Origin: a virus
IMG/VR virus record: IMGVR_UViG_3300017969_000147
Location: 1-24,004 of that record
Length of the DNA: 24,004 nucleotides
Reading direction: 5' to 3' (one strand)
Shown here: one piece after another, positions 5,601 to 24,004 of the stretch
Layout: the number at the start of each line of letters is the position of its first letter
How positions within the stretch are numbered: position 1 is the first letter of the stretch
Program-made: the position numbers and the translations under genes
The notes under the pieces: generated by a model
Databases searched by the model: none
Seen by the model: the letters and a program-made list of their open reading frames with translations, nothing else
Told to the model about the DNA's origin: nothing

Positions 5601-8600
5601 CATTTAGATTATGTGATGCTGGGATTGGTGGAACAATAACCTCAAATTATAATAGAGAAAATTTTGTAAAATTCTCAACTTCTGGTAATGGATATCAATA
5701 TTTCAAATATCCAGATATTTCAGTTACTATAAAATATAATCCAGTAGGATTTTCAACAAATACACAAGTTTATCAGAATCTTTTAGTTACTCCTGTAGTT
5801 AGGGGAAGTATTGATCAACTATATCTCTACAATAAAGGAACTGGATATGGATCTACAGTATTAAACTATGAAAATTCCCCGACGGTACAAATAAAAAATG
5901 GAAAGTATGCCAATATATCACCAAATATTTTAAATGGATCTATAAATTCGGTAACAATTCAATATGGGGGAATTGAATATTACTCAGTTCCAGATTTAGT
6001 AGTTATTGACCCTACAAATAAAGGATCTGGAGCAAAACTTAGACCAATTATTTCAAATGGTGCAATAACTGAAGTAAAAGTTATTAACGCTGGCATTGGA
6101 TATTCTACTTCATCATATATTAATGTTGTTTCTTCTGGAAAAGGTGCATCACTTAAATCAAACATTAGGTCTTTGACTGTTAATGCTAATTTGAAACTTG
6201 GGGATGAAAATTCTGGAAGTGAAATTTTAGTAGAATCTGACAACAAATTAAAATATACAGTATCTGGATATTTTAACTCTTTAAGGGATTCATTTGGAGA
6301 AAGTGCTTCAAATTCAGTAAATCCTAAGATTTCAGGAATTATTGGATGGGCTTATGATGGAAATCCGATATATGGTCCATTTGGATACTCAGATCCAGAA
6401 GATAAAACAACTATTACAAGATTGACTTCCGGTTATTCTAAAGACATAACAAAAGTTTTAGATAGACCAAGTGGATTTGCTGAGGGATTTTTCATTGAAG
6501 ATTATCAATATACTAATAGTGGTTCATTAGACCAAAAAAATGGAAGATTTGAAAAAACACCAGAGTTTCCAAATGGCGTCTATGCCTATCATGCGACAGT
6601 AGAATCTTCGGGAACACCAACATTTCCATATTTTATTGGCAATGAATATCATTCGGAAACTTTATCTGAAAATCAGTCATTAAATCAAGAATTTGATTTT
6701 AAATCTTCAACACTTCTCAGAAATACTTTCCCATACAAAGTTTCTGATATTGGATCTAGTTATGACTATTTCATAGAAATTGATGATATTAAAAAACAAG
6801 AAGTTACTGTTGAATCGGTTTCTTTTGGATCTGTTGATAATTTCTCGGTTATAAATGCGGGGGATAATTACAAGGTAGGAGATTCTTTAAACTTTGATAG
6901 ATCAATATCGGGTGGAGGTGTTGATGCGATAGTTTCATCTCTAAAAGGAAAAAGTATTACCAAATTAGAGACATCCTCTCTCACTTATCCTCAAGCATTA
7001 TTCACTTGGAATGATGTTAATAGTGTAAAGGTAAATATTCTACCTAACCACTCTCTGAAAACTGGAGATTACATTTCTATCTCTGGATTTGCATCTACAT
7101 TATCTAATCTAAATGGAATTCATAAAGTAGCAATTTCTCCAGAATCAACATCACTTATATCTTCAATTACTAGTGCTGCTAGTATTGGAACCACAGAAAT
7201 ATATGTATCATATATTCCAGAGAGTGTTTCCGCTGGAAGCAGCATCGGAATTGGAACTGAAACCTTGATGGTTCTCAATACCTTCAAACAAAAAGGTATA
7301 CTTAGAGTAGAAAGAGGATTGACTAATGTATCGCACAATCAGAATACGACAGTAAGTTTTAATTCCGATTCATTTACCATACCAAAAGAAGTAGAGTATT
7401 TTGAATCTAAGTTAAATGATAAAGTATATTTCAATCCTCAAGAATCTGTAGGTATTGGTACAATAGTGGGACTATCCACTTCAGTATCTTTTGATTTTGG
7501 CGGATCTAATATTACTAGAAGTATTCCTACAAAATCAATTTACATAGAAAATCACCCATTTAAAAATAATCAACAAATTTCATATGCAAGTAATGGAACT
7601 AATATTTTCATATCAACCGATGGAATTTCTGTAAGTAGTTTACCATCAACTTTGTATGTTGTAAACAAAGGAAAAGACTTAGTTGGATTAAAAACAGAAT
7701 TAAGTTCTTCGGAGTTATTTTTCCACAGTAATGGGGATGATAATGATAAGTATCTTTTTGAGTCGATTTATCCACAGATAACTGGAACTGTTTCTAGAAT
7801 AAAAACTACAGTATCTGTATCAACAGCGCATGGATTACTTGAAAATGATGTTATCTCATTAAATGTTCAACCCAGTCTTTCTGTTGGTATTGGAACATCT
7901 ACATCGGTTAAAATCACAAGAGATTCTAATAGTTCTAATATATTAGTAAATCCTATCGGATTTAACTCTACAGGAATCAACACTTCATCGGATACATTAA
8001 CACTTACAAATCACAATTTAAACACGGGCGATAAAGTCAACTATTCTGCAGATATAGTTGCTTCCGGATTATCGGCAGGAAGTTTCTATGTTTACAAAGT
8101 CGATGATGATCAAATTAAATTATGTGAAACAAAGAAAGATTCACTATTAAATCCTCCAACCGTTGTAAGCATTGCAGGAACTGGTGGATCATCTCAAACA
8201 ATTGCTAAGATTAATCCAAGAATAGTTTCTATAAGAAATAATGACTTGGTATTTGATTTATCTGATTCGTCACTTTCGGGATATAATTTTAAAATCTATA
8301 CTGATAATCAATTTAAGAATGAATTTGTTTCTACCGGATCAACAGGATCCTTCAATTATTCTTTAGTTGGAACTGCACTCACTATTTCATACGACTCTTC
8401 ATTACCAGAAAAATTATTCTACACCTTAGAAAAATCTGGTTCTATTAGTACGACGGATATAGATGTTCAGAATTATTCCGAAATACTATTAACTGATAGT
8501 GATTATAATAATACTTACAGTGTTGTTGGAGTTGGAACAACTACATTTGATATTGTTCTCTATCAAAACCCAGAAAGACTCTCATATACATCTACTGAGT

Positions 8601-11600
8601 GTGATAGTGTAGTATATACAACAACTTCTACCACTGCTTCTGGGCCGATTGATGGATTTAAAATAATTTCTAGTGGTGGTGGATATAAAAAATTACCAAC
8701 ATTGAGTAGCATAACTTCTGCCAATGGAAAAGGAGCTAATGTTGTAGCAAAATCAAATACTATTGGGGTAATAAAATCTATAAAAACAAATAATGATGAA
8801 TTTGAATATCCTAGTGATCCAACTTTACAACCAAAAGCAAATATTTCTTCATTGGTCGTTGTAAAAGATGCAAATGAATTGGAATCGGTATCTGTTGTTA
8901 GTGGAGGAAATGGATTTATTTCTACACCAGATATTGTAATTGTAGATTCTGATTCTGGTAAAAAAATAAATTCTGGAGTTCTTGAGGCAGAACTTTCTGG
9001 AAGTTCTATTCAATTTGTAAATATCATTTCACCTCCAAAAGGTCTCCCTGATACTGAGGTCAAAATTCGTACCGTTAATAATAACAATGGATTTACAATT
9101 CATAAAGTTCAGTCAGATTCAACAGGAATATTTACTTGTTTTATAACAAAACCTGTTAGTGGAGTTCCCTACTTTGCAACAAACGATAAAGTTTTTATTG
9201 AAGGAATACAGAAATTTAGTACAACTGGATCTGGATTTAATTGTGAAGATTATTCATATGACTTCTTTACTGTTGCAGGAGTAACGATATCTTCACCATA
9301 TGATGAAATTAAAATTGATATTTCTGGAATAACAACTAATCCTGGAATAGCGAAAACAATACAAGATGGATCGGGAGTATTAATTCTTGAAGACGATTAT
9401 CCAACATTTACAATCACACAGAAAAAATCAACTTTTGAAAAAAATGAGATTCTCACTTTAGAAAACAATAATATTGATTTAAATGTTCTTAACTTTGATG
9501 GATATTTCTTGGAAGTTAATGGAACGTATGAATTGTCAGTAGGTCAAGTTGTTATCGGCAGCGAAAGTGGATCTTCTGCAACTATTCATTCAATAGACAA
9601 AAATGATACAAATTATTCAATCAATTATTCAGTATTGAAAAATTTTGGATGGAATGATGATTTTGGAAAATTAAATTCAGATTTCCAGGTTATACCAGAC
9701 AATGATTATTATCAAAACTTATCATATACTGTAAAAAGTAGCAAAAAATATTCAACTTTAGAGTCATCAGTATTCAACGTTCTTCACACAAGTGGAATGA
9801 AGAACTTTGCTGATACTGAAATTAAAAAAACTGTTAATATATCAGGAATTGGATCTACAGATTCTAGTGTGTATCTTTATAATGTCTTAGGTGACGAAAG
9901 AGTTGATTCTATTTACAATTTCGACTTTGTAAAAGATTATAATGTTATTAGCGGAACATCCAAGTTTTTGGCCTTCAAAAATCAAAAACTTGCGGACTTC
10001 TTTGAGTCAAAAGAAAATAATGTATTATCAATAGACGATATTAGCAGTCAATTCTCGTACTTTGAAGATTCTCCTACCGAATTTTTAAATATTTCAAAAT
10101 TAGACAATACAAATTCTTATGATAGTTATTTGATTAGTGTTTCTAATTTGGATAATACTAAAGTTCAATTTGCAGAGATTGTAATATTGAGTGATAAGGT
10201 TGATAATTATATTCTTCGTAAGGGTAATGTTTCAAATCAAACCATTAATCCAGGATCTTTTGATTTAGTTGTAGATGAGTTTAATGATTCTTACTTTAGA
10301 TTTGTTCCTGAGGATCCTTATGATACTGATTATGATTTGAAGATACATAAAGTCATTTTTGAAGATTCGATTGTCGGAATTGGAACTACTTCTGTTGGTT
10401 TTATTGATATTATTGGTAAAAATGAAACGGCAACTTCTGGAATTACAACAACTTTAGTTGGAGTTAATACTAACAACTTTGGTTCTTTATATGCAAATGT
10501 TCAAGTTATAGACAATACAACAAATGATATGAATTTTGTTGAGTTGTACTTAACTCATGATGGGGAAAACACATACATTTCTGAATATTATTTCGACTCA
10601 GAGATTCAAACTGGTGGATACTCTGGTAATTTTATGGGTTCATTTACATCAGATATCTCAAATGATATTCTTTCTTTGAGTTACACAAATAACACACAAA
10701 ATACAAACACATTAAGAGCAAAAGTAGTGGGATTTGGAACAACATCAACACCTGGTGTTGGTGGATCATATAGATTCAAGTTGGAAAGACAACCTGACGG
10801 AAGTGAAAGAACTATCATTTATCAGTCGAATAATGTAGTCGGAGTTGGAGTAACAACAGTTTTATCGATAGACAAAAATAAATTCAACGCAGTAAAATCT
10901 CTTGTTGAAGTAGGAATTGGAACAATCAAGTCCGTACATCAAGTTTATATGATTCAGGACACTTCTGATGTACATATCACTCAATCAGCCCTTCTCTCTG
11001 TAAGTGGTATTACTACTTTTGATACTGCTATGGGAATAGGCACATTTGGAGGTAATAATTCTGGATCCACATTAGACCTCACTTTCACACCTGATTCAGA
11101 TTATTCTGCATCAACTATTACAGTATCAGCACTTAGTGAATTATTCTATACCGACTTAGATATTTCTAATGTGCCACCTGCTCTTGAATATGGAAAAATA
11201 CGTGAAGATATCGACCTCAAATTTTATAATGCCATCAACGGAGATAGAATTAACAAAACTAATTTTGCCCTTACACATAATGGAACTCCAATTTTTGTAA
11301 AAGTATTCGATCCTCAGAACACTAACGCTCTCATTTCTACTACTGGAACTTTTAATATAAACAATCACTTCTTCAAGAATGGTGAAGAATTGATTTATAC
11401 TCCAAAATCTTCAATAATTGGTATTGCTACCACAGCAATGACTTATACAAACTCTACTAGTGGAGTAACTGACACTTTACCATCGACTGTGTTTGCTGTA
11501 GTAACAGATTTTAACAGAGAAAGTTTCCAAATATCAACAACAAGAAGTGGAGCTGCGGTAACATTTACAGATCTTGGTGGTGGAAATATTCACCAGTTTG

Positions 11601-14191
11601 AAATGGCGAATAAGAGCACTAAATCAATAATTGTAGTTGATGATGCCATACAACATCCTATAACGTTCTCCGGTGCATCTACTACATTATCAGGATCTAT
11701 TGGAACGACAACAAACACATTTACTCTGTCTGGAATATCATCGATTAATCCATCAGATATTCTAAAAGTTAATAATGAATATATGAGAGTGAACAATGTT
11801 GGATTGGGAACTTCGAGTGTTGGTCCAGTAACAGGAATAGGCACATTTAATGTTGTAGACGTTGATAGAGGATTTGTTGGGACTAGTGCAACAAATCATT
11901 CAAATGGAAATACAGTCGATATCTACAGAGGTTCATTTAATATTGTTGAAAATGTTATCCACTTTACTCAAGCACCAAGGGGTAATCCTCAAATAGATAA
12001 AACTAAATCTAATTTAGATTTTGAAACATCCGATTTTAATGGTAGAGTATTTTTAAGATCTGATTACGCAACTAATAAAATATATGATGACATATCCAAT
12101 GAATTTAATGGAATTGGTAGGACATTTACTTTAACAACATCAGGACTAAACACATCTGGAATTGGAACAGGTGGTGGAAACGGAATTGTTCTCATAAATG
12201 GAATATTCCAACAACCATCAACAGACAACAATCCAAATGGCAACTTTAATATTTTTGAGAATACATCTCCATCACCAGGAATAACCACGATTGTTTTCTC
12301 TGGTATAACTAGCGCAAATTCTGATCCAGCAATTTATATTACATCTGATGTTGATGTAAATCAAAATCAAACTCCAAGGGGAGGAATTATTGTTTCTTAT
12401 GGATCTACCCCTGGACTTGGTTTTGCACCTCTTGTGGGAGCATCTGTGACTGCCATAGTTGGCGCAGGAGGAACTATTGCTGGTATTACTACAGACCTTA
12501 TTGGAGGAACATTTGGATCTGGATATTATGGATTGGTAAGTGTTGCTATTACAGAAACAGGACATTCTGGAGCAGCTGCAACAATTACTGCAGTTGTCGG
12601 TGCTGGCGGAACTCTAACCTTTTCTATTGATGGAGAAGGAAGCAATTACAATAATCCATCTATATTAGTTTCATCTCCATCATATGAAAATCTTTCAGTT
12701 GTTGGTGTTTCTAGAATTGGAATTGGAACAACAACTACTACTGGAATAGGACTTTCAATGAGTCTTTCCGTTGGACCTGTTGGAGAAACGGGAGCAGGAG
12801 CAACTTATTTTGGTGTCACTGAGTTTGAATTTTCTAAGATTGGTTATGGTTTTAGAAAAGGTGATGTATTCAAACCAGTAGGACTTGTCACCGATGGAAG
12901 TCTATCAAGTCCACTTCAAGATTTTGAAATAACGGTTCTTGAAACTTATTCAGATACCTTTGCTGCTTGGGAATTTGGAGAATTAGATTTTATTGATTCT
13001 ATAAAAGAATATCAAGATGGATCTAGAGTTACTTTCCCACTCAACTATAATGGAGAACTACGTAGTTTTGAACTTCCTGAGGACGGAGATGTTGATCTTG
13101 CAAGTTGTCTTTTAATTTTTATAAATGGAATTCTTCAGGTTCCAGGAACATCATATATTTTTGGTGGAGGAACTTCTTTCCAATTTACAAACCCCCCTAA
13201 AGAAGATGATAACATATCAATATATTTCTATAAAGGATCTGGAAATGATGTAAGATCTGGAAACACAAATACAACAATTCAAGTTGGTGATACTCTTACA
13301 TCTCTTGCTGGGGAAATTGGTATTGATCAACAGGGTAGAGTTGTAACTAACATATCATCTTCAGACGTGGTTGAAACTAATCCATATAGCGGAGTTGGGA
13401 TAAACGAGTTAGATTGGAAACCAGTTAAGTGGACGAAACAAAAATCCGATAAAAAAATAAATGGAGAAAATGTTTCAAAAGAAAGAGATTCTTTAAAATC
13501 ACTTGTTTTCCCCACAGCAAATATTATATCTGATGTTGATACCAGTGCAAATATGATATTTGTTGATAGTATTGATTTATTCAGATATGAAGATCCAGAC
13601 CTATCATCTTTTAATGCATTGGTCGTAGATAATGTTTCTGTTGGAATTGGAACAACAGACCCTGTAGAGTATGTTGAACTTATTAGTAATTTTACAAATA
13701 TTATAGGAAATTCTGGAGATGTTATAGGGATTGCTTCTACTGGTAGCTCTCCTCTGGGAATTGAATTTGAATTGGATGATGTGTCGGATATAAGCACAGG
13801 ATATCCAATTTATATTACAGACACAAAAGTTGGAAGTGGAGTTACATCCATTCTTTCATCCAGCGATTCTGATGTTGTAGCAATTGGTTCTACATACCTA
13901 GACAACATTTATCATGTTCAACAGGTTTCTGTAACTCCCGGTTCTTCCCCTGCTGGTATTGTTACTTGCTATGTTGATTCCAATTCAAATTTAGTTGGAA
14001 TTGATACTACAGGAAAGGTTGGAAAATTCTCTTGGGGGAGATTGTCAAATACTGTCGATTTGGAAAGATTAAATCCAATATCTATTGGAGTAACTGGAAG
14101 GGTGGTTTCTGGATTGTCAACATACCCAGTTATTATGAGAAGGGGTGGAGACACCACATTGAGACAAACAGGTTCAATTTACAGAATCTAA
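2624..14191 (+). CDS. 7: giant baseplate wedge protein, gp7-type core with a long modular extension
   Basis: The product is 3,855 residues, against 1,032 for T4 gp7. It is assigned to gp7 because it follows gp6, precedes gp8, and its first ~310 residues match the C-terminal core of T4 gp7 by memory. LPSFILDENPNASEFLKQYY (about 19-38) parallels the T4 segment SYLLQDSNFEAFCEAYIQYL. SFYQTKGTNESFRILFNALYNE (about 199-220) parallels SYDFYSTKGIEASYKFLFKVLYNE. NLVGQTI near 257 parallels DLVGQTI. T4 gp7 tethers gp6, gp8 and gp10 in each wedge. The T4 N-terminal beta domains are absent. Instead, residues ~310-3855 are a chain of beta-type modules: HGF/GD repeats, GGxGY repeats, FPxxG/IDxE repeats, a YHYH domain (~1235-1345), a DNDYYQ...HTSG segment (2359-2391), three tandem modules (~2490-2840) and two INGxxQ modules (near 3191 and 3500). 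The C-terminus ends TTLRQTGSIYRI. No signal peptide or membrane segment is seen. The assignment to gp7 is strong; the role of the extension is unknown. Confidence 0.85.
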   Translation: MIQTGFESRVKVQQIVESQLPSFILDENPNASEFLKQYYISQEYQGGPIDIAENLDQYLKLDNLTPEVIVGETTLSANISSTENTIQVESTKGFPPHYGLFQIDDEIITYTDITANSFTGCIRGFSGITGYHQDLNQEELIFTETKSESHTSGSKVKNLSSLFLKEFYNKLKFTIAHELQDTNFTSSLDVGTFLKELKSFYQTKGTNESFRILFNALYNETPSVVNLEQFLLKPSHSEYLNREVVIAEGISGITTSNLVGQTIKKVTDETTSASISSIEPFTRNGKTYFKLTLFVGYNDFSAVEGNFVITPSTKTTLSSPSESSIITVDSTIGFPQSGTLYSGNNTIEYTSKSINQFFGCSGITEAISKNEIIRNNDIYYGYENGDTTKRVELRFVGVLSDLVKSNSIKASEGDLIKVKNLGNLIKNPATKNYTEIFANSWIYNTASSYEVVSTDSNYTLGSEIDRSSLKVGDRVELVDRGTRAIQSDSGNPYIQSINSSNNVSIDGSFSDTQSSIKYDLRRIINTANSSGVSIENGNNTLTSDIQNLYTDSNDYAYIASNSLPSGSISGSNNYRYNITKSTYKFTINSLSSLQDKDSLGDYTTISSATNIPFITGDKIYYSPLTSPLVGLEEGIYYVEVISPKSIRLYTSRSFIGGTNYLSFSVPNSGISAHTFILYSHRTNQIGAQKLFKKFPLKSNIKSPGKKTEPGTTGMLINGVEISNYKSEDKIYYGPLESISVFGGGEDFDVINLPNIELSSDNGSGALVQPVISGSFKEIYVDSQNYDIDKILSIDISGGNGTGAVIKPILTRRFREVSFDGRLTTNSGGISTSNNRIIFLSDHNFQDGEEIIYNSNGNLELVVGSGSSTLINNSSYFVKVQNNITISIFESVSDYAAGINTVGFSTGTSGTHKFRTANSKNVVSDIEIINGGSGYTNRKLVVSPSKVSTTNHTINFDDHGFKSGELVEYSFQTSTISGLSTSNQYYILKIDDDSFRLCDAGIGGTITSNYNRENFVKFSTSGNGYQYFKYPDISVTIKYNPVGFSTNTQVYQNLLVTPVVRGSIDQLYLYNKGTGYGSTVLNYENSPTVQIKNGKYANISPNILNGSINSVTIQYGGIEYYSVPDLVVIDPTNKGSGAKLRPIISNGAITEVKVINAGIGYSTSSYINVVSSGKGASLKSNIRSLTVNANLKLGDENSGSEILVESDNKLKYTVSGYFNSLRDSFGESASNSVNPKISGIIGWAYDGNPIYGPFGYSDPEDKTTITRLTSGYSKDITKVLDRPSGFAEGFFIEDYQYTNSGSLDQKNGRFEKTPEFPNGVYAYHATVESSGTPTFPYFIGNEYHSETLSENQSLNQEFDFKSSTLLRNTFPYKVSDIGSSYDYFIEIDDIKKQEVTVESVSFGSVDNFSVINAGDNYKVGDSLNFDRSISGGGVDAIVSSLKGKSITKLETSSLTYPQALFTWNDVNSVKVNILPNHSLKTGDYISISGFASTLSNLNGIHKVAISPESTSLISSITSAASIGTTEIYVSYIPESVSAGSSIGIGTETLMVLNTFKQKGILRVERGLTNVSHNQNTTVSFNSDSFTIPKEVEYFESKLNDKVYFNPQESVGIGTIVGLSTSVSFDFGGSNITRSIPTKSIYIENHPFKNNQQISYASNGTNIFISTDGISVSSLPSTLYVVNKGKDLVGLKTELSSSELFFHSNGDDNDKYLFESIYPQITGTVSRIKTTVSVSTAHGLLENDVISLNVQPSLSVGIGTSTSVKITRDSNSSNILVNPIGFNSTGINTSSDTLTLTNHNLNTGDKVNYSADIVASGLSAGSFYVYKVDDDQIKLCETKKDSLLNPPTVVSIAGTGGSSQTIAKINPRIVSIRNNDLVFDLSDSSLSGYNFKIYTDNQFKNEFVSTGSTGSFNYSLVGTALTISYDSSLPEKLFYTLEKSGSISTTDIDVQNYSEILLTDSDYNNTYSVVGVGTTTFDIVLYQNPERLSYTSTECDSVVYTTTSTTASGPIDGFKIISSGGGYKKLPTLSSITSANGKGANVVAKSNTIGVIKSIKTNNDEFEYPSDPTLQPKANISSLVVVKDANELESVSVVSGGNGFISTPDIVIVDSDSGKKINSGVLEAELSGSSIQFVNIISPPKGLPDTEVKIRTVNNNNGFTIHKVQSDSTGIFTCFITKPVSGVPYFATNDKVFIEGIQKFSTTGSGFNCEDYSYDFFTVAGVTISSPYDEIKIDISGITTNPGIAKTIQDGSGVLILEDDYPTFTITQKKSTFEKNEILTLENNNIDLNVLNFDGYFLEVNGTYELSVGQVVIGSESGSSATIHSIDKNDTNYSINYSVLKNFGWNDDFGKLNSDFQVIPDNDYYQNLSYTVKSSKKYSTLESSVFNVLHTSGMKNFADTEIKKTVNISGIGSTDSSVYLYNVLGDERVDSIYNFDFVKDYNVISGTSKFLAFKNQKLADFFESKENNVLSIDDISSQFSYFEDSPTEFLNISKLDNTNSYDSYLISVSNLDNTKVQFAEIVILSDKVDNYILRKGNVSNQTINPGSFDLVVDEFNDSYFRFVPEDPYDTDYDLKIHKVIFEDSIVGIGTTSVGFIDIIGKNETATSGITTTLVGVNTNNFGSLYANVQVIDNTTNDMNFVELYLTHDGENTYISEYYFDSEIQTGGYSGNFMGSFTSDISNDILSLSYTNNTQNTNTLRAKVVGFGTTSTPGVGGSYRFKLERQPDGSERTIIYQSNNVVGVGVTTVLSIDKNKFNAVKSLVEVGIGTIKSVHQVYMIQDTSDVHITQSALLSVSGITTFDTAMGIGTFGGNNSGSTLDLTFTPDSDYSASTITVSALSELFYTDLDISNVPPALEYGKIREDIDLKFYNAINGDRINKTNFALTHNGTPIFVKVFDPQNTNALISTTGTFNINNHFFKNGEELIYTPKSSIIGIATTAMTYTNSTSGVTDTLPSTVFAVVTDFNRESFQISTTRSGAAVTFTDLGGGNIHQFEMANKSTKSIIVVDDAIQHPITFSGASTTLSGSIGTTTNTFTLSGISSINPSDILKVNNEYMRVNNVGLGTSSVGPVTGIGTFNVVDVDRGFVGTSATNHSNGNTVDIYRGSFNIVENVIHFTQAPRGNPQIDKTKSNLDFETSDFNGRVFLRSDYATNKIYDDISNEFNGIGRTFTLTTSGLNTSGIGTGGGNGIVLINGIFQQPSTDNNPNGNFNIFENTSPSPGITTIVFSGITSANSDPAIYITSDVDVNQNQTPRGGIIVSYGSTPGLGFAPLVGASVTAIVGAGGTIAGITTDLIGGTFGSGYYGLVSVAITETGHSGAAATITAVVGAGGTLTFSIDGEGSNYNNPSILVSSPSYENLSVVGVSRIGIGTTTTTGIGLSMSLSVGPVGETGAGATYFGVTEFEFSKIGYGFRKGDVFKPVGLVTDGSLSSPLQDFEITVLETYSDTFAAWEFGELDFIDSIKEYQDGSRVTFPLNYNGELRSFELPEDGDVDLASCLLIFINGILQVPGTSYIFGGGTSFQFTNPPKEDDNISIYFYKGSGNDVRSGNTNTTIQVGDTLTSLAGEIGIDQQGRVVTNISSSDVVETNPYSGVGINELDWKPVKWTKQKSDKKINGENVSKERDSLKSLVFPTANIISDVDTSANMIFVDSIDLFRYEDPDLSSFNALVVDNVSVGIGTTDPVEYVELISNFTNIIGNSGDVIGIASTGSSPLGIEFELDDVSDISTGYPIYITDTKVGSGVTSILSSSDSDVVAIGSTYLDNIYHVQQVSVTPGSSPAGIVTCYVDSNSNLVGIDTTGKVGKFSWGRLSNTVDLERLNPISIGVTGRVVSGLSTYPVIMRRGGDTTLRQTGSIYRI
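2838..3050 (+). repeat. module B copy 1 (FPxxG...IDxE) inserted in the gp7 core
   Basis: This segment encodes TTLSANISSTENTIQV, then STKGFPPHYGLFQID, then DEIITYT and a glycine/aromatic tail. It lies between the two parts of the protein that match T4 gp7, so it is an insertion in the conserved core. Further copies of the pattern TTLS...IxVxxxxGF...IxxExIxY are at about 3563-3745, 7150-7380 and 11680-11935 in the same gene, and at about 21618-21870 in the DUF4815 gene. The repeat is at protein level; the DNA copies are diverged. Confidence 0.6.
4428..5710 (+). repeat. cluster of HGF/GD-type beta modules (A1-A3) in gp7
   Basis: Three ~80-residue modules share the pattern: beta strand, (D/N)HxF or equivalent, xxG(D/E)xxxY, then YYVxxIDxDxFRL or similar, and a glycine-rich end. 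Copies start near 4428 (ITGDKIYYS), 5110 (DHNFQDGEEIIYN) and 5459 (DHGFKSGELVEYS). More copies or partial copies are near 7030 (NHSLKTGDYISISGF), 7520 (NHPFKNNQQISY), 7810 (AHGLLENDVISL), 7975 (NHNLNTGDKVNYS) and 11332 (NHFFKNGEELIYT). The pattern resembles the small beta domain often labelled E1_FCCH-like in phage tail proteins; that name is from memory and not verified. Confidence 0.6.
5395..6170 (+). repeat. run of GGxGY-type beta repeats in gp7
   Basis: Short repeats of the form (hydrophobic)xx(I/V)xxGGxGYxxxPxxxI, followed by a GxGAxxxPxI strand, recur here: NGGSGYTNR near 5407, NKGTGYGST near 5832, QYGGIEYYSVPDLVVI near 5960 and NAGIGYSTS near 6085. Related copies are near 4841 (GGGEDFDVINLP), 6850 (NAGDNYKVGD), 8670 (SSGGGYKKLP) and 8898 (SGGNGFISTPDIVIV). 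The same repeat also occurs in gp8 and in the DUF4815 protein. Such repeats are common in large structural proteins of marine T4-like phages; the fold is inferred to be beta-rich. Confidence 0.65.
6320..6665 (+). other. YHYH domain embedded in gp7
   Basis: Residues ~1235-1345 of the gp7-type protein carry the hallmarks of the YHYH domain (Pfam family of unknown function). These are GWAYDGNPIYGPFGY (1241-1255), a GSLDQKNGRFEKTPEFPNG stretch (about 1300-1318), the signature Y-x-Y-H at 1320-1323, and PYFIGNEYH about 15 residues later. In the canonical motif the second position is His; here it is Ala (YAYH). The domain is flanked on both sides by ordinary beta repeats. It is known in secreted bacterial proteins and phage structural proteins without an established activity, so surface exposure on the particle is a guess. 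Confidence 0.75.
10095..11155 (+). repeat. three tandem ~90-residue beta modules in gp7
   Basis: Three consecutive segments align by eye, starting near 10095, 10470 and 10870. Each has a strand ending in YLISVSN, LYANVQV or KSLVEV. This is followed by an acidic/aromatic strand (QFAEIVILSD, NFVELYLTHDG, VHQVYMIQD), a central stretch including GSFDLVV, GSFTSDIS or GTFGGNNS, and a final strand (YFRFVPEDPYD, ILSLSYTNNT, TLDLTFTPDSD). They are diverged at DNA level, so the duplication is old. Similar modules occur in other marine T4-like phage fibre and baseplate proteins as far as I recall. Confidence 0.55.
12105..13245 (+). repeat. two INGxxQ modules near the gp7 C-terminus
   Basis: Two segments carry a strand with INGI(F/L)Q: VLINGIFQQP at residues ~3189-3198 and FINGILQVPGTSYIF at ~3499-3513. 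The second continues with a GGTSFQFTNPP hairpin and a strand ISIYFY. This layout recalls a domain of T4 gp10 containing VRFNGILQE and a following DIINITWF strand, remembered rather than searched. Between the two copies lies a glycine/alanine-rich stretch with VGAGGT twice (near 12460 and 12600). Confidence 0.5.
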
Positions 14192-14230: not shown

Positions 14231-15751
14231 ATGTCTGCCGTAGTAACAGATCAATTTAGAATACTTAATGCGAGTAATTTTGTAGACTCTGTTTTGGATA
14301 CAAATAATTCATATTATGTTTTTCTAGGATTGTCAAATGCCAAAGATCCATCTGTTGGGTTTGGTAGAACTAGTACTTGGGACACCCAAAATGTTGGAAA
14401 TGGACCAAATCCAGTAGATAATTTACAATATATGACACATTATAGAGATACTTCTCTATTTGGAAAAAGAATTACTGGCGATAACGTTAGAAGAGTCATA
14501 AGAAAAGTACAATGGACTTCTAATACACAATATGATATGTACAGACATGATTATAGTAGTACAAACGAATCTCCAAATTCAAAGTCGGCAAGATTATATG
14601 ATTCAAACTATTATGTGATTAATAAAGATTTTAGAGTTTATATTTGTATTGATAATGGATCTTCTGGATCTTTGGTAAAGGGTAGTAGATCAAAAATTGA
14701 ACCAACATCAACTGACCTATTACCTTCCAAACCTAGTGGTGATGATTATTCTTGGAAATATCTGTTTACAGTATCTCCAAGTGATATTGTAAAATTTGAC
14801 TCAACAGAGTATATTGTTCTTCCTAATAATTGGTCAACATCTACAGATCCAGAAATATCTAGAGTTAGAGATGGGGCTACTACTTCCGGTCAAATAAAAA
14901 AAGTTTACATTGAGTCTGCTGGTACTAGTGGATATAGTGATGGAACTTACAATATTCTGGGTGATGGTACTGGTGCTACAGTTCAAATAACAACTAACGC
15001 AGGTAAAATTACAAAGGCAGACGTAGTAGATGGTGGAAGTGACTATACCTGGGGAGTAGTGGATTTGGGAGTTGGTAATGGTGCTAAGTTAATACCAATC
15101 ATCCCACCATCAAAAGGTCATGGATACGACATTTATACAGAGTTAGGTGCCGATAGAGTTTTAGTATATTCCAGATTTGATGATTCTACAAAAGATTTTC
15201 CGATTGATACAAAATTTGCACAAGTTGGATTAATTAAAAATCCACAATCTCAATCCTCTTCTGTAACATATACAGGATCAACATATTCATCATTATATGC
15301 AATAAAATTAACTGATTCTTATTCTGGAACTCCAGTGATTGGTGAAAAAATCACACAAGAGCAAGTGGGAGTGGGCATTGCAAAGGGTTATGTTGCCTCA
15401 TATGATTCATCAACAAAGGTTCTAAAATACTATAGAGATAGATCTTTATACTTTAACAACCAAAAAGATCAAATTGATTATACAGGAGTTTCTATTGGAT
15501 CTACTGTTACGAATTTCAATTCCACTAGCACCATCACATTTTCATCACCATCAGGTCAAACAGCAACAGTCTCTGATGGATTCAGTGGAAGTAGTTTTAA
15601 CGGGGTTGATCTTGGTGTTACTTTCACATCTGGTCTTGCAAGTCCAGAGATAAATAAAAAGACAGGGGATATTATTTACATTGATAACAAGCCTGAAGTA
15701 CAAAGAAACATTAGGCAAAAAGAAGACATTAAAATCATTCTGGAATTCTAA
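14231..15751 (+). CDS. 8: baseplate wedge subunit gp8, enlarged by two insertions
   Basis: The product is 506 residues against 334 for T4 gp8, which sits as a dimer in each wedge and contacts gp6, gp7 and gp10. Matches to T4 gp8 recalled from memory are the N-terminal VTDQFRILNASNF with YYVFLGLSN, the segment SGDDYSWKYLFTVSP, EYIVLPNNW (residues 193-201; T4 EYIVVPWPEEL), QVGLIKNP (about 330; T4 QISIITNP) and the C-terminus GDIIYIDNKPEVQRN...IILEF (T4 GEMIYMENRPPI...ILFTF). The extra length lies in two blocks: a GGxGY-type module at residues ~225-292 and a serine/threonine-rich block at ~335-475. The first block uses the same repeat type as the neighbouring gp7. The gene is preceded by a late promoter and followed six bases later by the DUF4815 gene. 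Confidence 0.92.
   Translation: MSAVVTDQFRILNASNFVDSVLDTNNSYYVFLGLSNAKDPSVGFGRTSTWDTQNVGNGPNPVDNLQYMTHYRDTSLFGKRITGDNVRRVIRKVQWTSNTQYDMYRHDYSSTNESPNSKSARLYDSNYYVINKDFRVYICIDNGSSGSLVKGSRSKIEPTSTDLLPSKPSGDDYSWKYLFTVSPSDIVKFDSTEYIVLPNNWSTSTDPEISRVRDGATTSGQIKKVYIESAGTSGYSDGTYNILGDGTGATVQITTNAGKITKADVVDGGSDYTWGVVDLGVGNGAKLIPIIPPSKGHGYDIYTELGADRVLVYSRFDDSTKDFPIDTKFAQVGLIKNPQSQSSSVTYTGSTYSSLYAIKLTDSYSGTPVIGEKITQEQVGVGIAKGYVASYDSSTKVLKYYRDRSLYFNNQKDQIDYTGVSIGSTVTNFNSTSTITFSSPSGQTATVSDGFSGSSFNGVDLGVTFTSGLASPEINKKTGDIIYIDNKPEVQRNIRQKEDIKIILEF
14903..15106 (+). repeat. GGxGY-type module inserted in gp8
   Basis: This part of gp8 encodes VYIESAGTSGYSDGTYNI, a GDGTGATVQI strand, then VVDGGSDYTWGVVDL and GNGAKLIPIIPP. 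That is two consecutive copies of the same GGxGY plus GxGAxxxPI unit found many times in gp7. T4 gp8 has no equivalent here in my recollection. Confidence 0.6.
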
Positions 15752-15757
15752 AAAAAG

Positions 15758-18700
15758 ATGGCACAAAAAACAGACTTAAACGTTAATCCATATTTTGACG
15801 ATTTTGACTCAAATAAAAATTTTTATAAGGTCTTATTTAAGCCAGGATATCCAGTCCAAGCGAGGGAATTAACAACCCTCCAATCTATTTTACAAAATCA
15901 AGTTGAGTCTTTTGGTAGTTATATTTTTAAAGATGGAACCGTAGTAAGTCCTGGAAATATAACCTACGATAATCAGTATTATGCCGTAAAGTTAAACTCC
16001 ACGAATTTTGGTGTAGACGTTTCTTTATACATCAATAACTTTATTGGCAAAAAGATAACAGGACAATCTTCTGGGTCTACAGCAACTGTTCAATTTGTAT
16101 CTCTTCCAGATGGGGGTCAAGTTGAAGATTTGACAATTTATGTAAAATATGTAGATTCAAATAATAACTTTGTTTTCGAACAGTTTGAGGATGGAGAATC
16201 TCTATTTGCTAGTGAAAATGTAACTTATGGAAATACTGTAATTAATTCAGGAACTCCATTCGCATCTCTTATTGACTTAAATGCAACTTCAATAGGTTCT
16301 GCAGCATCTATTGGAGAAGGAACATACTTTATCAGAGGGTTTTTTGCAAATGTTTCCAAGCAAACTATTATTTTAGACAATTATACAAATACTCCTTCAT
16401 ATAGAGTTGGTCTAAAAATTCAAGAACTGACTGTAAATGCAAAAGATGATAATTCTTTATATGATAATGCTAAAGGATTTTCAAATTTTTCCGCACCTGG
16501 AGCAGATAGATTACAAATAAATTTAACTTTAACTAAAAAATTATTAACAGACACCAATGACACTGATTTTGTAGAATTGTTTAGAGTATCTGACGGTAAG
16601 ATCAAAAAGATTACAACTAAAACAGAACTTGCAAGACTTGGAGATTATTTTGCGGAAAGAACATATGAAGAATCTGGACATTATGCATTAGAAAACTTCA
16701 ATATATCCGTCCACAATTCTTTAAATGATAAACTTGGAAATGATGGATTGTTTTTTGACGATCAATTTACGGATCAGCAAAGAACACCATCAGATGATTT
16801 GATGTGTGTTAAATTGTCTTCTGGTGAGGCATATGTTGGTGGATATAATGTAGAAAAACCAGTCGGGACAATTTTAGATGTAGAAAAACCAAGAGATACC
16901 GAATCTATTTCATCCGCGATCATTCCTTTTGAGATGGGGAACCTTCTTAGAGTCAATAATGTAAGTGGAGCACCAAAGCAGAAGGAATCTATTGATCTTT
17001 ATGATAAATTTGTTGGTGGTGGTGGAACAAAGATTGGTGATGCCAGAGTTTATACATTTAACCTATCTAGTTCTGCATATCAAGATGGATCTACAAATTG
17101 GGATTTGTACCTTTATGATGTTCAGACTTACACTTCTCTCACCTTAAATACACCAGTAGCACCTCTGGGATTAATAACTTCATCTTACATTAAAGGTAAG
17201 AGTAGTGGTGCGAGCGGATATGCAGTTTCCTCTGGTTCTGGAAGCACTGTAAGTGTAAGACAAACTTCTGGAACATTTTCTGTTGGAGAACAATTAATTA
17301 TTAATGGTGTTGATGCTTCCGCAACAGTAGCATCCGTCATTTCATATGGAACAAGGGACATTAAGTCAGTTTCTCAAACTGGTGTTTCCAATTTTCCAGA
17401 TTTCACCGCAGATTCTCTTTTAGATTCTATCAATCTCCCTAATGGTGTTGTTGGAGGAACTATTAGTGGTGGAACACTTGTAAGTCCCGGAAAAATATTC
17501 ACAGGTATTAAAGTTGGTGATATTATTAGATATCAAACTGCTTCTGGTGATGAAACTTTTAATAGAGTTACGGCGAATAATACAACATCACTTTCTGTTG
17601 GAATTGGAGCAACCGTTTCTGGAGTATCTGATGGTGCTGTTGTTGATGGAACCTACTCACAAATTAAACTTGGCGTTCCAACACTGAGAAATCAAGATAA
17701 AGGATACCTCTATGCAGAACTTCCAGATTCCAATATCGAATCAGTAAATCTTTCAGGATCATCATTAGCAGTTTCGGAACAAATAACAAATTTAACTATT
17801 GCTTCCGGCACATTAACATTTGACTTAGATAATATTGCAGGAATATCAAGTGCTTTCTTTAAAGGATTTGATGAAGAAAGATATTCAGTTCACTATAGCG
17901 GTGGTGGAATAGGCACAGTAACATCAGATTCATTCAGTCTCAATAGTGCGACCAATACAGTTACTATTACTGGACTGCAAAATGGAAGTAATGTTGTAGT
18001 TAATTCCACTCTTTCAAAGAATGGTATTCAAAGTAAGATAAAGGAATATACAAGAAGTACTTCTCTTGATGTTGTTTATTCTAAGAATTTACAATCTGGA
18101 ACTGCAGGATCAAACTCAAATAACTCAATAGACGATGGGTTGACATACAATAAAAATTATGGATTAAGAGTTCAAGATGAGGAAATATCTTTAAATTATC
18201 CAGATGTTGTTAAAGTTTTAGCAATTTATGAATCAACCGGAACTAGTGCTCCAATTTTAGATAAGATACAATTTGCAGATACTTCCATTGTAACAAATGC
18301 TATTATTGGAGAGAATATTTTAAGCACAATAAACAATGCTATTGGTAGAGTAGTATCTAAGAGTTCTAATGTTATTGATATTGTTTATTTAAATCAGGAA
18401 AGATTTGTTTCTGGACATTCCGTAAAATTTGCAGAGAGTAATTCTTCCGCAAACATACAAACAGTAACTCCTGGCGCATATAAAGATTTGACGAATGAAT
18501 TTACCTTAGATAAAGGTCAAAAAGATCAATATTATGACTATTCAAGATTGGTTAGAAAACTAAACACATCTATTCCATCAAAACGTCTTAAAGTTATATT
18601 TGATCATTATACTATACCAGCATCAGATAATGGTGACGTTTATACTGTCCTTAGTTATGACAAGGATAGATATGCCGAAGATATTCCAGAAATAGGAACC

Positions 18701-21700
18701 AAGAAAGTAAGAGCTTCCGATACTTTGGACTTTAGACCAAGAGTGTCTCAATTTGTTGCCACTGATAAGTCACCATTTGACTTTGGATCAAGAACTTTTG
18801 GAACATTGCCAAAGTTAGTTTTAAAACCTAAAGAAGATTCTCTTATTGGATATGATTATTACTTACCAAGAATAGACAAAATATTCTTAGATACTTTTGG
18901 CAATTTTATTGTTCAAAAAGGAACTTCGGCAAGAAATCCAAAAGAACCAATAAATGCAAATCCAGATCAACTAATGGATTTGGGAACAATAACTCTTCCA
19001 GCATATCTGTACAATCCGAATGATGCATTAATATCATTGGTTGATAATAGAAGATATACTATGAGAGATATTGGAAAACTTGAAGATAGAATTGAAAATC
19101 TTGAAGTTGTAACTTCCCTTTCATTATTGGAGTTAAACACACAGACTCTTCAGGTCCAAGATGCACAAGGAAACAATAGATTTAAAACAGGTTTCTTTGT
19201 TGATGATTTTAAAAATAACTCTTTAATTAATCTAGACGTTTCTTCTATTCAAGTTAACACCGAATCACAAGAATTAACTACTATTTCAAGTCAAAATACT
19301 TTAAAGAGTCAAATTGCTCCTGCTTCAAATACATCTGACGAAACTTTAGATTTCTCTCAAAATTTTGATCTTTTAGACTCCAATGTACAAAAAACAGGAA
19401 ATGCAATTACTTTAAAGTATGAAAGCGTTGATTGGATTGAACAACCATTAGCAACAAAGGTAGAAAATGTAAACCCATTCCACGTTGTTTCGTATAATGG
19501 TTTTGTATCTCTATCTCCATCTAGTGATAGTTGGGTAAGAACAATTAGATTGTCTGCAACATCTTCCAGTGTTAATACACGTATTGCAGATCCAAATCGT
19601 GCAGGAACGACAGGTACTTTTGTTACTTCTAGAGATGTTATAGTTTCTTCTGGAAACGAGCAATACATGCGCTCCAGAAACACACAATTTGCTGCAAATA
19701 ATCTAAAACCACTAACAAGGTTTTATCAGTTCTTTGATGGAAATGGTTCCGTTGACTTTATACCAAAATTATTAGAAATTTCCAACGACGAAACTCTAAC
19801 AACTTATGGATCTGTTGGATCATTTGAAGTTGGAGAAACTGTACTTGGATATGATGGAGAAAATAATATAATCTCCTTCAGACTTTGTTCCGGCAATCAT
19901 AAAGAAGGAACCTATAATTCTCCAAGTAAAACATTTAACATAAATCCATATGTAAAGTCGGAAAATCTTTCATCATCTTATAGTCAGTCCTCCAAAGTTC
20001 TTAACATTGATGTTTTAGCACTGTCTGAAGAAGCACAAGGAAAATATTCTGGATATATTAAGACAGGAGTTAAATTGGTAGGACAAACTAGTGGTGCCAT
20101 TGCTTTTGTAAAAGATTTAAAACTTATTAGTGATAATTATGGAGATCTGATTGGATCTTTCTTCCTTAGAGATCCAAATACATCTCCAGCACCATCAATT
20201 AGAATCACCACCGGAACTAAGACTTATAAATTAACAAATAGTTCAACTAATGCTCAACCTTTACCAGGAAGTAAATTAACTTCTGCAGCAGAAACTTCTT
20301 ATAGATCTGAAGGAAGATTTGAAGTTCGTCAGCGTCAAACAACAAGAGTAACTGCTGAATTCTATGATCCATTGGCACAATCCTTTAGTGTTGGTGGAAA
20401 TATTGAAGCTCCAAATGCAATTGGGCAGAATGATGATGCTAATGGGGCATTTTTAACTGCTGTAGATTTGTTCTTTGGTAACAAACCATCAGGAAATGAT
20501 CCTGTAAGAATTGAAGTCAGAACGGTTGAACTCGGTACTCCAACGAGAACTATTATTGGAAAACCAGTTACTTTAGTACCTTCAGATATAACTACCTCAA
20601 CAACAGGTGAAGTAGCAACAAAGGTAACATTTGAGTATCCAATCTACTTAGCACCTGGTCAAGAATATGCAATTGTTGCTGTTGCAGAAACAACTGATGA
20701 ATATGAGTTGTGGATTGCGGAAATGGGTGAAAGAACTGTTAACACCCAAACATTACCAGATGCAGAAGCGGTAATTTATTCAAGACAATTTGCTCTTGGA
20801 AGTTTGTTTAAGTCGCAGAATGGATCTATTTGGACAGCAAATCAGTATCAAGATCTTAAGTTTAAACTTTACAAGGCAAACTTCACATCAAATAATGGTA
20901 CTGCTTTCTTCTACAATCCATCTTTAGATCAAAGTAATGGATATGTAGAAACCTTAGGGAACAATCCTGTAACGACGTTACCAAAAACAGTAAATCTTGG
21001 TATATCTACAATTGCTGCTGGAGATGGAAATATTGGAATACTTACAGTAGGTAGAAAAATAGCAGCATCTAATGGGTTTGATGGTTATGGTTATATTGTT
21101 GGTACAGGAAGTTCTGTTTCTCAAGTAACAATCACTGATGGTGGAACAAATTATCCAACAGGAACAATTGCAGATTTGGAAACAACAAACATCGTTGGTA
21201 ATGGTTCCGGATTAAGATTATCTGTAACCGCAGGTGCAGCGGGAACAATAACTGGAATTGCAGCAACAACTGCAACGGGTAATGGATATCAAGTTGGAGA
21301 TGTTGTTGGTATTGTAACCACTTTGGGTAGAAATGCGAGATTTACTATATCATCTATTAGTGGATTAGATACTTTGTACTTATCTGGCGTTAAAGGTCAA
21401 AAGGATACAAATAAGTCGTTTGCTGTTGGTGCTGGTGTAAGTTACTATAATGATTCTGGTGTTATTGTTTCATTAGCATCCACTACCATTACTAATAGAA
21501 CTACAGAAGGAACGGGTTTGAATTCTGGTAATCGTCTTAGAATTAATCATTTTGATCATGGTATGTATTCATCTTTGGATAAAGTAAAACTTACAAACAT
21601 ATTACCAAGTGACTCACCTACCACACTTTCTTCGCAACTATCTATTGATGAGTCTGCGACTATCAGTGTAGCAAGTACCGCAGGATTTGAAACATTTGAA

Positions 21701-22867
21701 GGTGTCTCTGTTGGACCAACTACACCTGGATATGTTCTGATTGGTGATGAGATTATTGAGTATAATAACGTTTTGACTGGAACCCTCTCCATTGCTGGTT
21801 CTGGAAGGGCTAAAGATTCTACCGTATCTCAACCACATTCTACTGGATCTTTGGTTTACAAATATGAACTTAATGGTGTTTCTCTTAGAAGAATTAATAA
21901 TGTTGAGCACGATGTTGATTCCTTAGGAAATGCAATTGATGGATATCATGTGGAAATTGACATGTCAACAAATGGGTTGGATAGATCTGCTGATCTTAAT
22001 GGAAGATCGCAATTATCTTTCAATTCCCAAGAATCTTTAGGGGGATCAAATTGCAAAGCGACTGAAAATATTCAATTTAATGAAATTGCACCATATTATA
22101 ATATTCTTACACCAGGATCTTCTACTAGTGTGACTGCTAGTGTTAGAACTGTAACAGGAAGAAGTGTTAATGGAACAGAAACTCCATTTGTTGATAATGG
22201 TTTTGAAACTGTCCAACTCAATCAAGTTAATAGGTTAAATTCTGTTAGAATGGTTGCTTCTAAAGTAAACGAGACTAATAGATTAACTTATCTCCCAAGA
22301 AATAGATCTCTTACGACGGGTATTTCGTTATCCACGTCGGATAACAACTTGTCTCCAATAATCTATACAGATAATTCTATAACAGAATTTAGACTTGATA
22401 GATTAAATAGTCCAATAACAAATTATGCCACAGACAATAGAGTAAATTCTCTATTCTTTGACCCACACTCTGCGGTTTATGTATCAAATACTGTCAACTT
22501 AGCACAAGCATCGACATCTTTGAAAGTGCTTCTTGCAGCATATAGACATGAATCAGCAGACTTTAGAGTTCTGTATAGTTTGATAAGAGCAGATTCTAGT
22601 GAAGTTACTCAGGAGTTTGAATTATTCCCAGGATATAACAATCTGAAACTTACCACTAATGGTTTAGAGGTTATTGACGCAGCAAATAGTGATGGAAGAC
22701 CAGACAGTTTTGTTCCTGCAAGTTTAGATAACCAATATCTGGAATATGAGTATACTGCAAATAATTTAGACCTCTTTACCGGATATACAATTAAGATTGT
22801 GATGTCTGGAACTAATCAGGCATATGCTCCAAGAATCAAAGATCTGAGAACAATCGCACTTGTATGA
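15758..22867 (+). CDS. giant DUF4815-type virion structural protein (baseplate/fibre attachment region)
   Basis: The product is 2,369 residues. Its N-terminus (NVNPYFDDFDSNKNFYKVLF then PGYPVQARELTTLQSILQNQ, residues ~8-50) is the signature of DUF4815 phage structural proteins. Family-typical segments continue with GTYFIRGFF...NTPSYRVGL (~185-220), KRLKVIFDHYTIP (~940), DFRPRVSQF (~990) and GYDYYLPRIDKIFLD (~1030). A second conserved block starts at DPLAQSF (residue 1537) and runs through FLTAVDLFFGNKP, YLAPGQEYAIVAVAE and GSLFKSQNGSIWT to about 1710. It resembles a receptor-proximal or fibre-linking beta domain of other tailed phages. Repeat modules follow: GGxxY at ~1788-1860 and an FPxxG/IxxE module at ~1954-2040. 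The C-terminus reads YAPRIKDLRTIALV. The gene occupies the place of T4 gp9 and gp10, but I cannot show homology to either. The start six bases after gp8 implies co-transcription; its stop overlaps the next gene as ATGA. Confidence 0.85.
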   Translation: MAQKTDLNVNPYFDDFDSNKNFYKVLFKPGYPVQARELTTLQSILQNQVESFGSYIFKDGTVVSPGNITYDNQYYAVKLNSTNFGVDVSLYINNFIGKKITGQSSGSTATVQFVSLPDGGQVEDLTIYVKYVDSNNNFVFEQFEDGESLFASENVTYGNTVINSGTPFASLIDLNATSIGSAASIGEGTYFIRGFFANVSKQTIILDNYTNTPSYRVGLKIQELTVNAKDDNSLYDNAKGFSNFSAPGADRLQINLTLTKKLLTDTNDTDFVELFRVSDGKIKKITTKTELARLGDYFAERTYEESGHYALENFNISVHNSLNDKLGNDGLFFDDQFTDQQRTPSDDLMCVKLSSGEAYVGGYNVEKPVGTILDVEKPRDTESISSAIIPFEMGNLLRVNNVSGAPKQKESIDLYDKFVGGGGTKIGDARVYTFNLSSSAYQDGSTNWDLYLYDVQTYTSLTLNTPVAPLGLITSSYIKGKSSGASGYAVSSGSGSTVSVRQTSGTFSVGEQLIINGVDASATVASVISYGTRDIKSVSQTGVSNFPDFTADSLLDSINLPNGVVGGTISGGTLVSPGKIFTGIKVGDIIRYQTASGDETFNRVTANNTTSLSVGIGATVSGVSDGAVVDGTYSQIKLGVPTLRNQDKGYLYAELPDSNIESVNLSGSSLAVSEQITNLTIASGTLTFDLDNIAGISSAFFKGFDEERYSVHYSGGGIGTVTSDSFSLNSATNTVTITGLQNGSNVVVNSTLSKNGIQSKIKEYTRSTSLDVVYSKNLQSGTAGSNSNNSIDDGLTYNKNYGLRVQDEEISLNYPDVVKVLAIYESTGTSAPILDKIQFADTSIVTNAIIGENILSTINNAIGRVVSKSSNVIDIVYLNQERFVSGHSVKFAESNSSANIQTVTPGAYKDLTNEFTLDKGQKDQYYDYSRLVRKLNTSIPSKRLKVIFDHYTIPASDNGDVYTVLSYDKDRYAEDIPEIGTKKVRASDTLDFRPRVSQFVATDKSPFDFGSRTFGTLPKLVLKPKEDSLIGYDYYLPRIDKIFLDTFGNFIVQKGTSARNPKEPINANPDQLMDLGTITLPAYLYNPNDALISLVDNRRYTMRDIGKLEDRIENLEVVTSLSLLELNTQTLQVQDAQGNNRFKTGFFVDDFKNNSLINLDVSSIQVNTESQELTTISSQNTLKSQIAPASNTSDETLDFSQNFDLLDSNVQKTGNAITLKYESVDWIEQPLATKVENVNPFHVVSYNGFVSLSPSSDSWVRTIRLSATSSSVNTRIADPNRAGTTGTFVTSRDVIVSSGNEQYMRSRNTQFAANNLKPLTRFYQFFDGNGSVDFIPKLLEISNDETLTTYGSVGSFEVGETVLGYDGENNIISFRLCSGNHKEGTYNSPSKTFNINPYVKSENLSSSYSQSSKVLNIDVLALSEEAQGKYSGYIKTGVKLVGQTSGAIAFVKDLKLISDNYGDLIGSFFLRDPNTSPAPSIRITTGTKTYKLTNSSTNAQPLPGSKLTSAAETSYRSEGRFEVRQRQTTRVTAEFYDPLAQSFSVGGNIEAPNAIGQNDDANGAFLTAVDLFFGNKPSGNDPVRIEVRTVELGTPTRTIIGKPVTLVPSDITTSTTGEVATKVTFEYPIYLAPGQEYAIVAVAETTDEYELWIAEMGERTVNTQTLPDAEAVIYSRQFALGSLFKSQNGSIWTANQYQDLKFKLYKANFTSNNGTAFFYNPSLDQSNGYVETLGNNPVTTLPKTVNLGISTIAAGDGNIGILTVGRKIAASNGFDGYGYIVGTGSSVSQVTITDGGTNYPTGTIADLETTNIVGNGSGLRLSVTAGAAGTITGIAATTATGNGYQVGDVVGIVTTLGRNARFTISSISGLDTLYLSGVKGQKDTNKSFAVGAGVSYYNDSGVIVSLASTTITNRTTEGTGLNSGNRLRINHFDHGMYSSLDKVKLTNILPSDSPTTLSSQLSIDESATISVASTAGFETFEGVSVGPTTPGYVLIGDEIIEYNNVLTGTLSIAGSGRAKDSTVSQPHSTGSLVYKYELNGVSLRRINNVEHDVDSLGNAIDGYHVEIDMSTNGLDRSADLNGRSQLSFNSQESLGGSNCKATENIQFNEIAPYYNILTPGSSTSVTASVRTVTGRSVNGTETPFVDNGFETVQLNQVNRLNSVRMVASKVNETNRLTYLPRNRSLTTGISLSTSDNNLSPIIYTDNSITEFRLDRLNSPITNYATDNRVNSLFFDPHSAVYVSNTVNLAQASTSLKVLLAAYRHESADFRVLYSLIRADSSEVTQEFELFPGYNNLKLTTNGLEVIDAANSDGRPDSFVPASLDNQYLEYEYTANNLDLFTGYTIKIVMSGTNQAYAPRIKDLRTIALV
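21115..21870 (+). repeat. gp7-type modules inside the DUF4815 protein
   Basis: Around 21121-21345 the protein has VTITDGGTNYPTGTI and GNGSGLRLSV followed by GNGYQVGDVVGI, the GGxGY unit seen in gp7 and gp8. At about 21541-21600 FDHGMYSSLDKVKLTNI resembles the HGF/GD module. At 21618-21870 TTLSSQLSIDESATISV, STAGFETFEG, YVLIGDEIIEYN and a tail with GRA...QPHSTGSLVYKY match module B of gp7. Three module types known from gp7 are therefore strung together in the second giant gene. Confidence 0.6.
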
Positions 22868-23117: not shown

Positions 23118-23456
23118 ATGGCGGTATTTGTATCAAACATAGTAATTGAGCAGGGATTTGATTTTGATACTACTTTTATTTTGGAAGATACTACAACAGG
23201 AGATTATTTAGATTTAACTAACTATGATGTTGAATCTCAATTAAGAAAAACTTATTCTAGTAATACTGCTTATTCTTTCACAGCAGCAATCACCGAAGCT
23301 GAAGTTGGAAATGTCCAAATATCAATGGGATCTACTTTAACTTCTACTATAAAATCTGGAAGATATGTATTTGATGTAAAAATAATTAGTTCTGGAGGGA
23401 CAATATCTAAAGTTGTTGAAGGATCTGCTTTGGTAAGACCGGGAGTAACTAGGTAA
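23118..23456 (+). CDS. small beta-rich virion structural protein
   Basis: The product has 112 residues and no signal peptide. Its layout is an N-terminal strand with IEQGFDFDTTFIL, then LDLTNYDVESQLRKTY (about residues 35-50), a middle GNVQISMGSTLTSTIKSGRYVFDVKI (in two strands, about 68-90), and an ending with VVEGSALVRPGVTR. This beta-sandwich pattern, with DLT(G/N)Y and a (S/P)GRYVFDV strand, is shared with small phage structural proteins such as the N-terminal domains of baseplate/fibre proteins (BppU-like), by memory and not verified. It follows a late promoter and its TAA overlaps the ATG of the next gene by one base, so the two are coupled. A fibre or baseplate accessory role is inferred. 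Confidence 0.78.
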   Translation: MAVFVSNIVIEQGFDFDTTFILEDTTTGDYLDLTNYDVESQLRKTYSSNTAYSFTAAITEAEVGNVQISMGSTLTSTIKSGRYVFDVKIISSGGTISKVVEGSALVRPGVTR

Positions 23457-23893
23457 TGTCACCAGTAAAGGCTTCTACATTAATAGCATCGCCAACAGTA
23501 AAGGCTAGAGTAGGTCCTCAAAATGTAACTCGCGTTCTTTCTAACGCATCATCTCCTCCAGCAAAATTAATAGATCTAAATGATGTAAATTCCGATTCTC
23601 AGAATATTGATGGACTACTCCTAGTTTGGAATCTGGAAAATGAAACTTTTATAATGACAAGTGTCATTGATAATGAGGTAAAAATAAGTGATCCATCCGA
23701 ATCATACAGTGCAACCACCGGAGCACTTGTTGTTTCTGGTGGTGTTGGAATTGGAGGAAATTTAAATGTTGCCGGAATTGCAACTTTTGGAACGGGAACT
23801 GTTGTAATAGATGGAGACAATGATACTATTAATGTTGGAACAGCAGTAACTATTAGTTCCTCTGAGGGTATTTTTACACCTATTACAGGTTAA
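23456..23893 (+). CDS. N-terminal part of a fibre-like structural protein, frame broken at 23891
   Basis: The ATG overlaps the previous stop (TAATG) and GGGAG at 23441-23445 is a plausible ribosome binding site. The 145 codons encode an N-terminal region with SNASSPPAKLIDLNDVN (about residues 29-45), then LLLVWNLENETFIMTSVID, then the glycine/valine-rich fibre-type repeat TTGALVVSGGVGIGGNLNV (about 87-105) and AGIATFGTG. Proteins of this type in marine T4-like phages are, as I recall, much longer repetitive fibre-like proteins. Here a TAA at 23891-23893 ends the frame, yet the same repeat continues immediately in another frame to the window edge. The 145-residue product is therefore probably a truncated or frameshifted piece of a longer gene. 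Confidence 0.75.
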   Translation: MSPVKASTLIASPTVKARVGPQNVTRVLSNASSPPAKLIDLNDVNSDSQNIDGLLLVWNLENETFIMTSVIDNEVKISDPSESYSATTGALVVSGGVGIGGNLNVAGIATFGTGTVVIDGDNDTINVGTAVTISSSEGIFTPITG

Positions 23894-24004
23894 TGGTCCA
23901 TTTAAAGCAGAAAGTCTTAATATATCTGGAATATCAACATTAGCATCCAATGGTGGGATTACTACTACCGGAGGAAACCTATATGTAGGTGAAAATCTAG
24001 AAGT
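23850..24004 (+). pseudogene. out-of-frame continuation of the fibre-like gene (runs off the window)
   Basis: The frame starting at 23850 stays open to the end of the window. From 23889 it reads VNGPFKAESLNISGIST and then GGITTTGGNLYVGENLE, which matches the GG(V/I)...GGNL(N/Y)V repeat of the preceding frame. There is no ATG, GTG or TTG in this frame between its upstream stop (23847-23849) and the window end, so it has no conventional start of its own. Joining the two frames needs a +1 shift (or a net indel) within 23850-23890. The cause could be a sequence error, a mutation or recoding. Confidence 0.65.

Follow-up and report, generated by a model that had tools for sequence, protein, structure and literature searches.

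The question raised by this locus is why the reading frame of a fibre-type structural gene breaks close to the end of a viral contig, and whether the break reflects recoding, a mutation or an error in the sequence. The window, meaning the whole stretch of DNA that was analysed, is the entire virus record IMGVR_UViG_3300017969_000147 (24,004 bases) rather than a piece of a longer genome. The list of open reading frames, together with family matches, shows that it carries a T4-like tail region, with the following features.

252-653, 655-2622, 2624-14191 and 14231-15751: baseplate wedge proteins (family matches)
15758-22867: protein of 2369 aa
23118..23456, plus strand: L-shaped tail fiber protein assembly gene, intact (phrog_3304, E 1.5e-30)
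23456..23881, plus strand: fibre-type structural gene, 5' part, 142 codons in frame 0 (78% identical to the L002 protein over its residues 1-141)
23881..23882, plus strand: two nucleotides fewer than in every close relative; frame 0 passes into frame +1 here (pairwise alignments with L034 and L002; codon listings)
23883..24004, plus strand: the same fibre gene continued in the +1 frame and cut by the contig end (homology to L034 and L002)
23891-23893, plus strand: TAA ending frame 0, reached only through the upstream frame change

A small structural protein is also listed between the 2369-aa protein and the L-shaped-tail-fibre-assembly type protein. The gene for the latter is 82% identical in the relative L064 and overlaps the start of the fibre gene by 1 nt. 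The intact 3855-aa frame at 2624-14191 encodes a very long protein of the baseplate wedge type (phrog_2885), far longer than T4 gp7.

The frame break is confirmed as real in the sequence as given. The sequence-only reading had the frame that opens at 23456 ending at the TAA at 23891-23893, which is what the sequence contains, and its estimate of about 40 bases for the overlap of the two frames agrees with the approximately 41 nt found. It also described the +1 frame as continuing the same type of protein without a usual start codon, and this holds on both counts. Following a TAA at 23847-23849, no stop interrupts the +1 frame between 23850 and the last base of the contig, 24004. A tblastn search of the window with the L002 protein gives a match in two frames (23453-23881 and 23868-24002), and the 40 codons of the +1 part share 90% amino-acid identity with L034 and 80% with L002; by homology, the +1 stretch clearly encodes the homologous protein. 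Moreover, in the alignments with L034 and L002 the differences in both halves of the gene fall mostly at third codon positions, so that by this measure both still look like coding sequence under selection.

An open +1 frame might also be read as the second of two separate genes, starting within that frame, and the openness of the frame is the one observation in its favour. However, codon listings show that beyond 23847 the +1 frame lacks ATG, GTG and TTG as far as the contig end, the ATG at 23893 lies in the third frame and is followed by a stop after 16 codons, and the relatives encode one protein. An ATG-started gene in the second frame, which the sequence-only reading had named as the finding that would overturn its own, was looked for and is absent, and the existence of two genes is considered extremely improbable. 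Reinitiation was likewise ruled out, as the +1 frame is without a start codon.

The site at which the frame changes is revealed by the closest relatives, L002 and L034, in which the protein reads GIFTPSLQVNG and GIFTPALQVNG, respectively. In the window, frame 0 encodes GIFTP and the +1 frame LQVNG, and one base separates the two. Because this single base stands where the relatives have a whole codon, the window is 2 nt short between 23881 and 23882, and the alignment with L034 puts the deficit at a single point, 123 nt from the contig end. The stop is met ten nucleotides after the deficit, and its first base (23891) lies three codons, counted in frame 0, beyond the switch indicated by homology. 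The join proposed earlier, at GGT-T-AAT (23888-23894), is therefore misplaced, since the LQV codons (23883-23891) just before GGT-TAA are already in the +1 frame. The same reading pointed to a T-run as a possible indel site. The run exists, at 23871-23875 rather than 23870-23874, but it sits 7 nt before the true site and has the same length in the closest relatives; its codons are ATT TTT in the window and ATA TTT in L034 and L002, a substitution only.

These details bear directly on phase variation, in which slippage at a repeat would switch the fibre gene on and off. The nearness of the T-run lends this proposal some appeal, but the run is of only five bases and is not where the indel occurred, the sequence at the deficit (ACACCT|ATTACAG) contains no homopolymer and no short tandem repeat, and length at the site does not vary among the relatives. 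Phase variation is thus considered very unlikely to account for the break.

Alignment with homologous genes, which had been suggested as a check, was run, and it shows a single frame in the relatives and a window two nucleotides short. Among the relatives fetched, 89 distinct sequences cross the region in one frame with 0 stops; the window alone gives matches in two frames. A 29-residue block around the site is aligned without a gap in 16 of the 89, with constant length there. The uninterrupted IMG/VR homologues, for example L002 (3300007960_000393) and L034 (3300033182_000785), carry the same gene in the same order as the window and its continuation, with the L-shaped-fibre-assembly gene upstream and gp13-like and gp14-like neck genes downstream; they differ in having one reading frame where the window is two nucleotides short. 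Relatives with a single open frame, and a length in the window that is off at one point by other than a multiple of three, are the pattern of an indel. From these alignments, all of the observations are accounted for by an indel of two nucleotides in a gene that is otherwise intact. Among the causes listed in the sequence-only reading, an indel, whether error or mutation, is the part borne out by the relatives, while recoding at GGT-TAA and phase variation are not.

Programmed +1 ribosomal frameshifting, either at GGT-TAA (23888-23893) or at CCT-A (23879-23882), would yield short and long fibre proteins, and it is in keeping with the continuation of the homologous protein in the +1 frame. Phage structural genes offer known cases of programmed frameshifting, among them Listeria phage PSA, where +1 shifts take place at a proline codon (PMC5009743). 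The window resembles the PSA case in that a phage structural gene has a +1 frame running past a stop, and it has, by chance, a proline codon at the true join. Features expected of programmed shifting are missing here: the arrangement is kept in no relative (0 of the 89 distinct spanning relatives are split), the slow codon, often a stop, that should directly follow the slippery codon is not beside the proline codon, and there is no sign of the stimulatory structure that accompanies some such shifts. The fold of 23885-24004, assessed for structures other than pseudoknots, is no stronger than that of shuffled sequences (z = -0.22). A shift at GGT-TAA would not yield the conserved protein, because LQV precedes it in the +1 frame. 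With CCT-A as the shift site, the stop lies three codons off rather than adjacent, and the product would be one residue shorter than the homologues. Programmed shifting therefore seems highly improbable, and the earlier suggestion that a +1 shift controls fibre length is not supported, as no relative shifts there and no structure exceeds chance. Similarly improbable is the combination of a genuine deficit with read-through by a +1 shift on the CCT-A proline codon, which would give truncated and full-length fibre proteins side by side in this one lineage.

Downstream of the window, the genome appears to continue directly in another contig, L046 (3300025889_013962), whose bases 1-101 are identical to window positions 23904-24004. 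As this 101-nt overlap is identical and the nearest other relative found has only about 88% DNA identity over the stretch, L046 most likely derives from this virus or from a very closely related one. From the fourth base of L046, the +1 frame runs through another 184 full codons and closes normally (...VIDGGEF). Directly beyond the fibre gene, at L046:558-2830, lie head-tail adaptor and head closure genes resembling those for T4 gp13 and gp14, an order shared with L002 and L034. Since L046 begins 22 nt past the deficit, the site itself falls outside it, and the contig is uninformative on whether the virus carries the deficit. The window and L046 assemblies both end in the same stretch.

The indel may accordingly be technical or genuine. 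The fibre-type gene would be an ordinary single-frame structural gene of a T4-like marine myovirus, located between baseplate/tail genes and neck genes and probably about as long as that of the closest relative, whose fibre protein has 333 aa. Loss of two nucleotides between 23881 and 23882 would then throw the frame into the stop ten nucleotides on. We infer that an assembly or low-coverage error near the contig end is the most likely, and on balance the probable, cause of this loss, because the deficit lies so close to that end and the other large genes are intact. A random break in 24 kb has only about a 0.5% chance of falling this near the window's end, or 1% for either end, and the unbroken state of the other large genes, including frames of 3855 and 2369 aa, indicates that the contig is not generally indel-prone. 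Against a technical error, a two-base deletion is atypical of short-read sequencing errors, and collection searches, which may omit records near-identical to the window, gave no second copy of the exact region to confirm or deny the deficit: the gapped pattern matched only the intact L034 in viral contigs and nothing in genome contigs, and exact flanking patterns gave only unrelated chance matches (L144-L146) or nothing.

A genuine recent 2-nt deletion, in the phage or in part of its population, is a possible but less likely source of the deficit. It would truncate the protein after residue 145, with loss of the conserved C-terminal half, and leave the gene inactive in those genomes. The deficit is, after all, present in the sequence as given, the coding pattern preserved in the 3' part would fit a very recent event, and the exact overlap with L046, together with the ending of both contigs here, could represent two alleles in one population. 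Nevertheless, every relative keeps the frame, the C-terminal half is among the best conserved parts of the protein in the relatives, and the location right at a contig end is suspicious. If the deficit is technical, as we prefer, the apparent break would have no biological role, and little biological weight should be placed on it. Frame breaks near contig ends are best compared with relatives before recoding is proposed, and the true join should be located by homology rather than by the closest stop codon.

With regard to the gene itself, PHROG matches are to phrog_13853 (annotated as unknown) and, weakly, to phrog_30742 (tail fiber). The position between tail-fibre/baseplate genes and gp13/gp14-like neck genes is that of wac (fibritin) in T4. 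The likeness is in position only, as no solved structure is related to the fibre protein by sequence and no fibritin-type family was matched. A predicted structure for the L002 protein reached a mean pLDDT of only 57.5 and was set aside as too poor to use. Among annotated phages there is one distant relative only, Marine virus AG-345-L05. Compared with the gene in the window, the homologue at L034:6602-7528 lacks approximately 25 residues from its N-terminal half, so that the length of the fibre family varies by whole in-frame modules.
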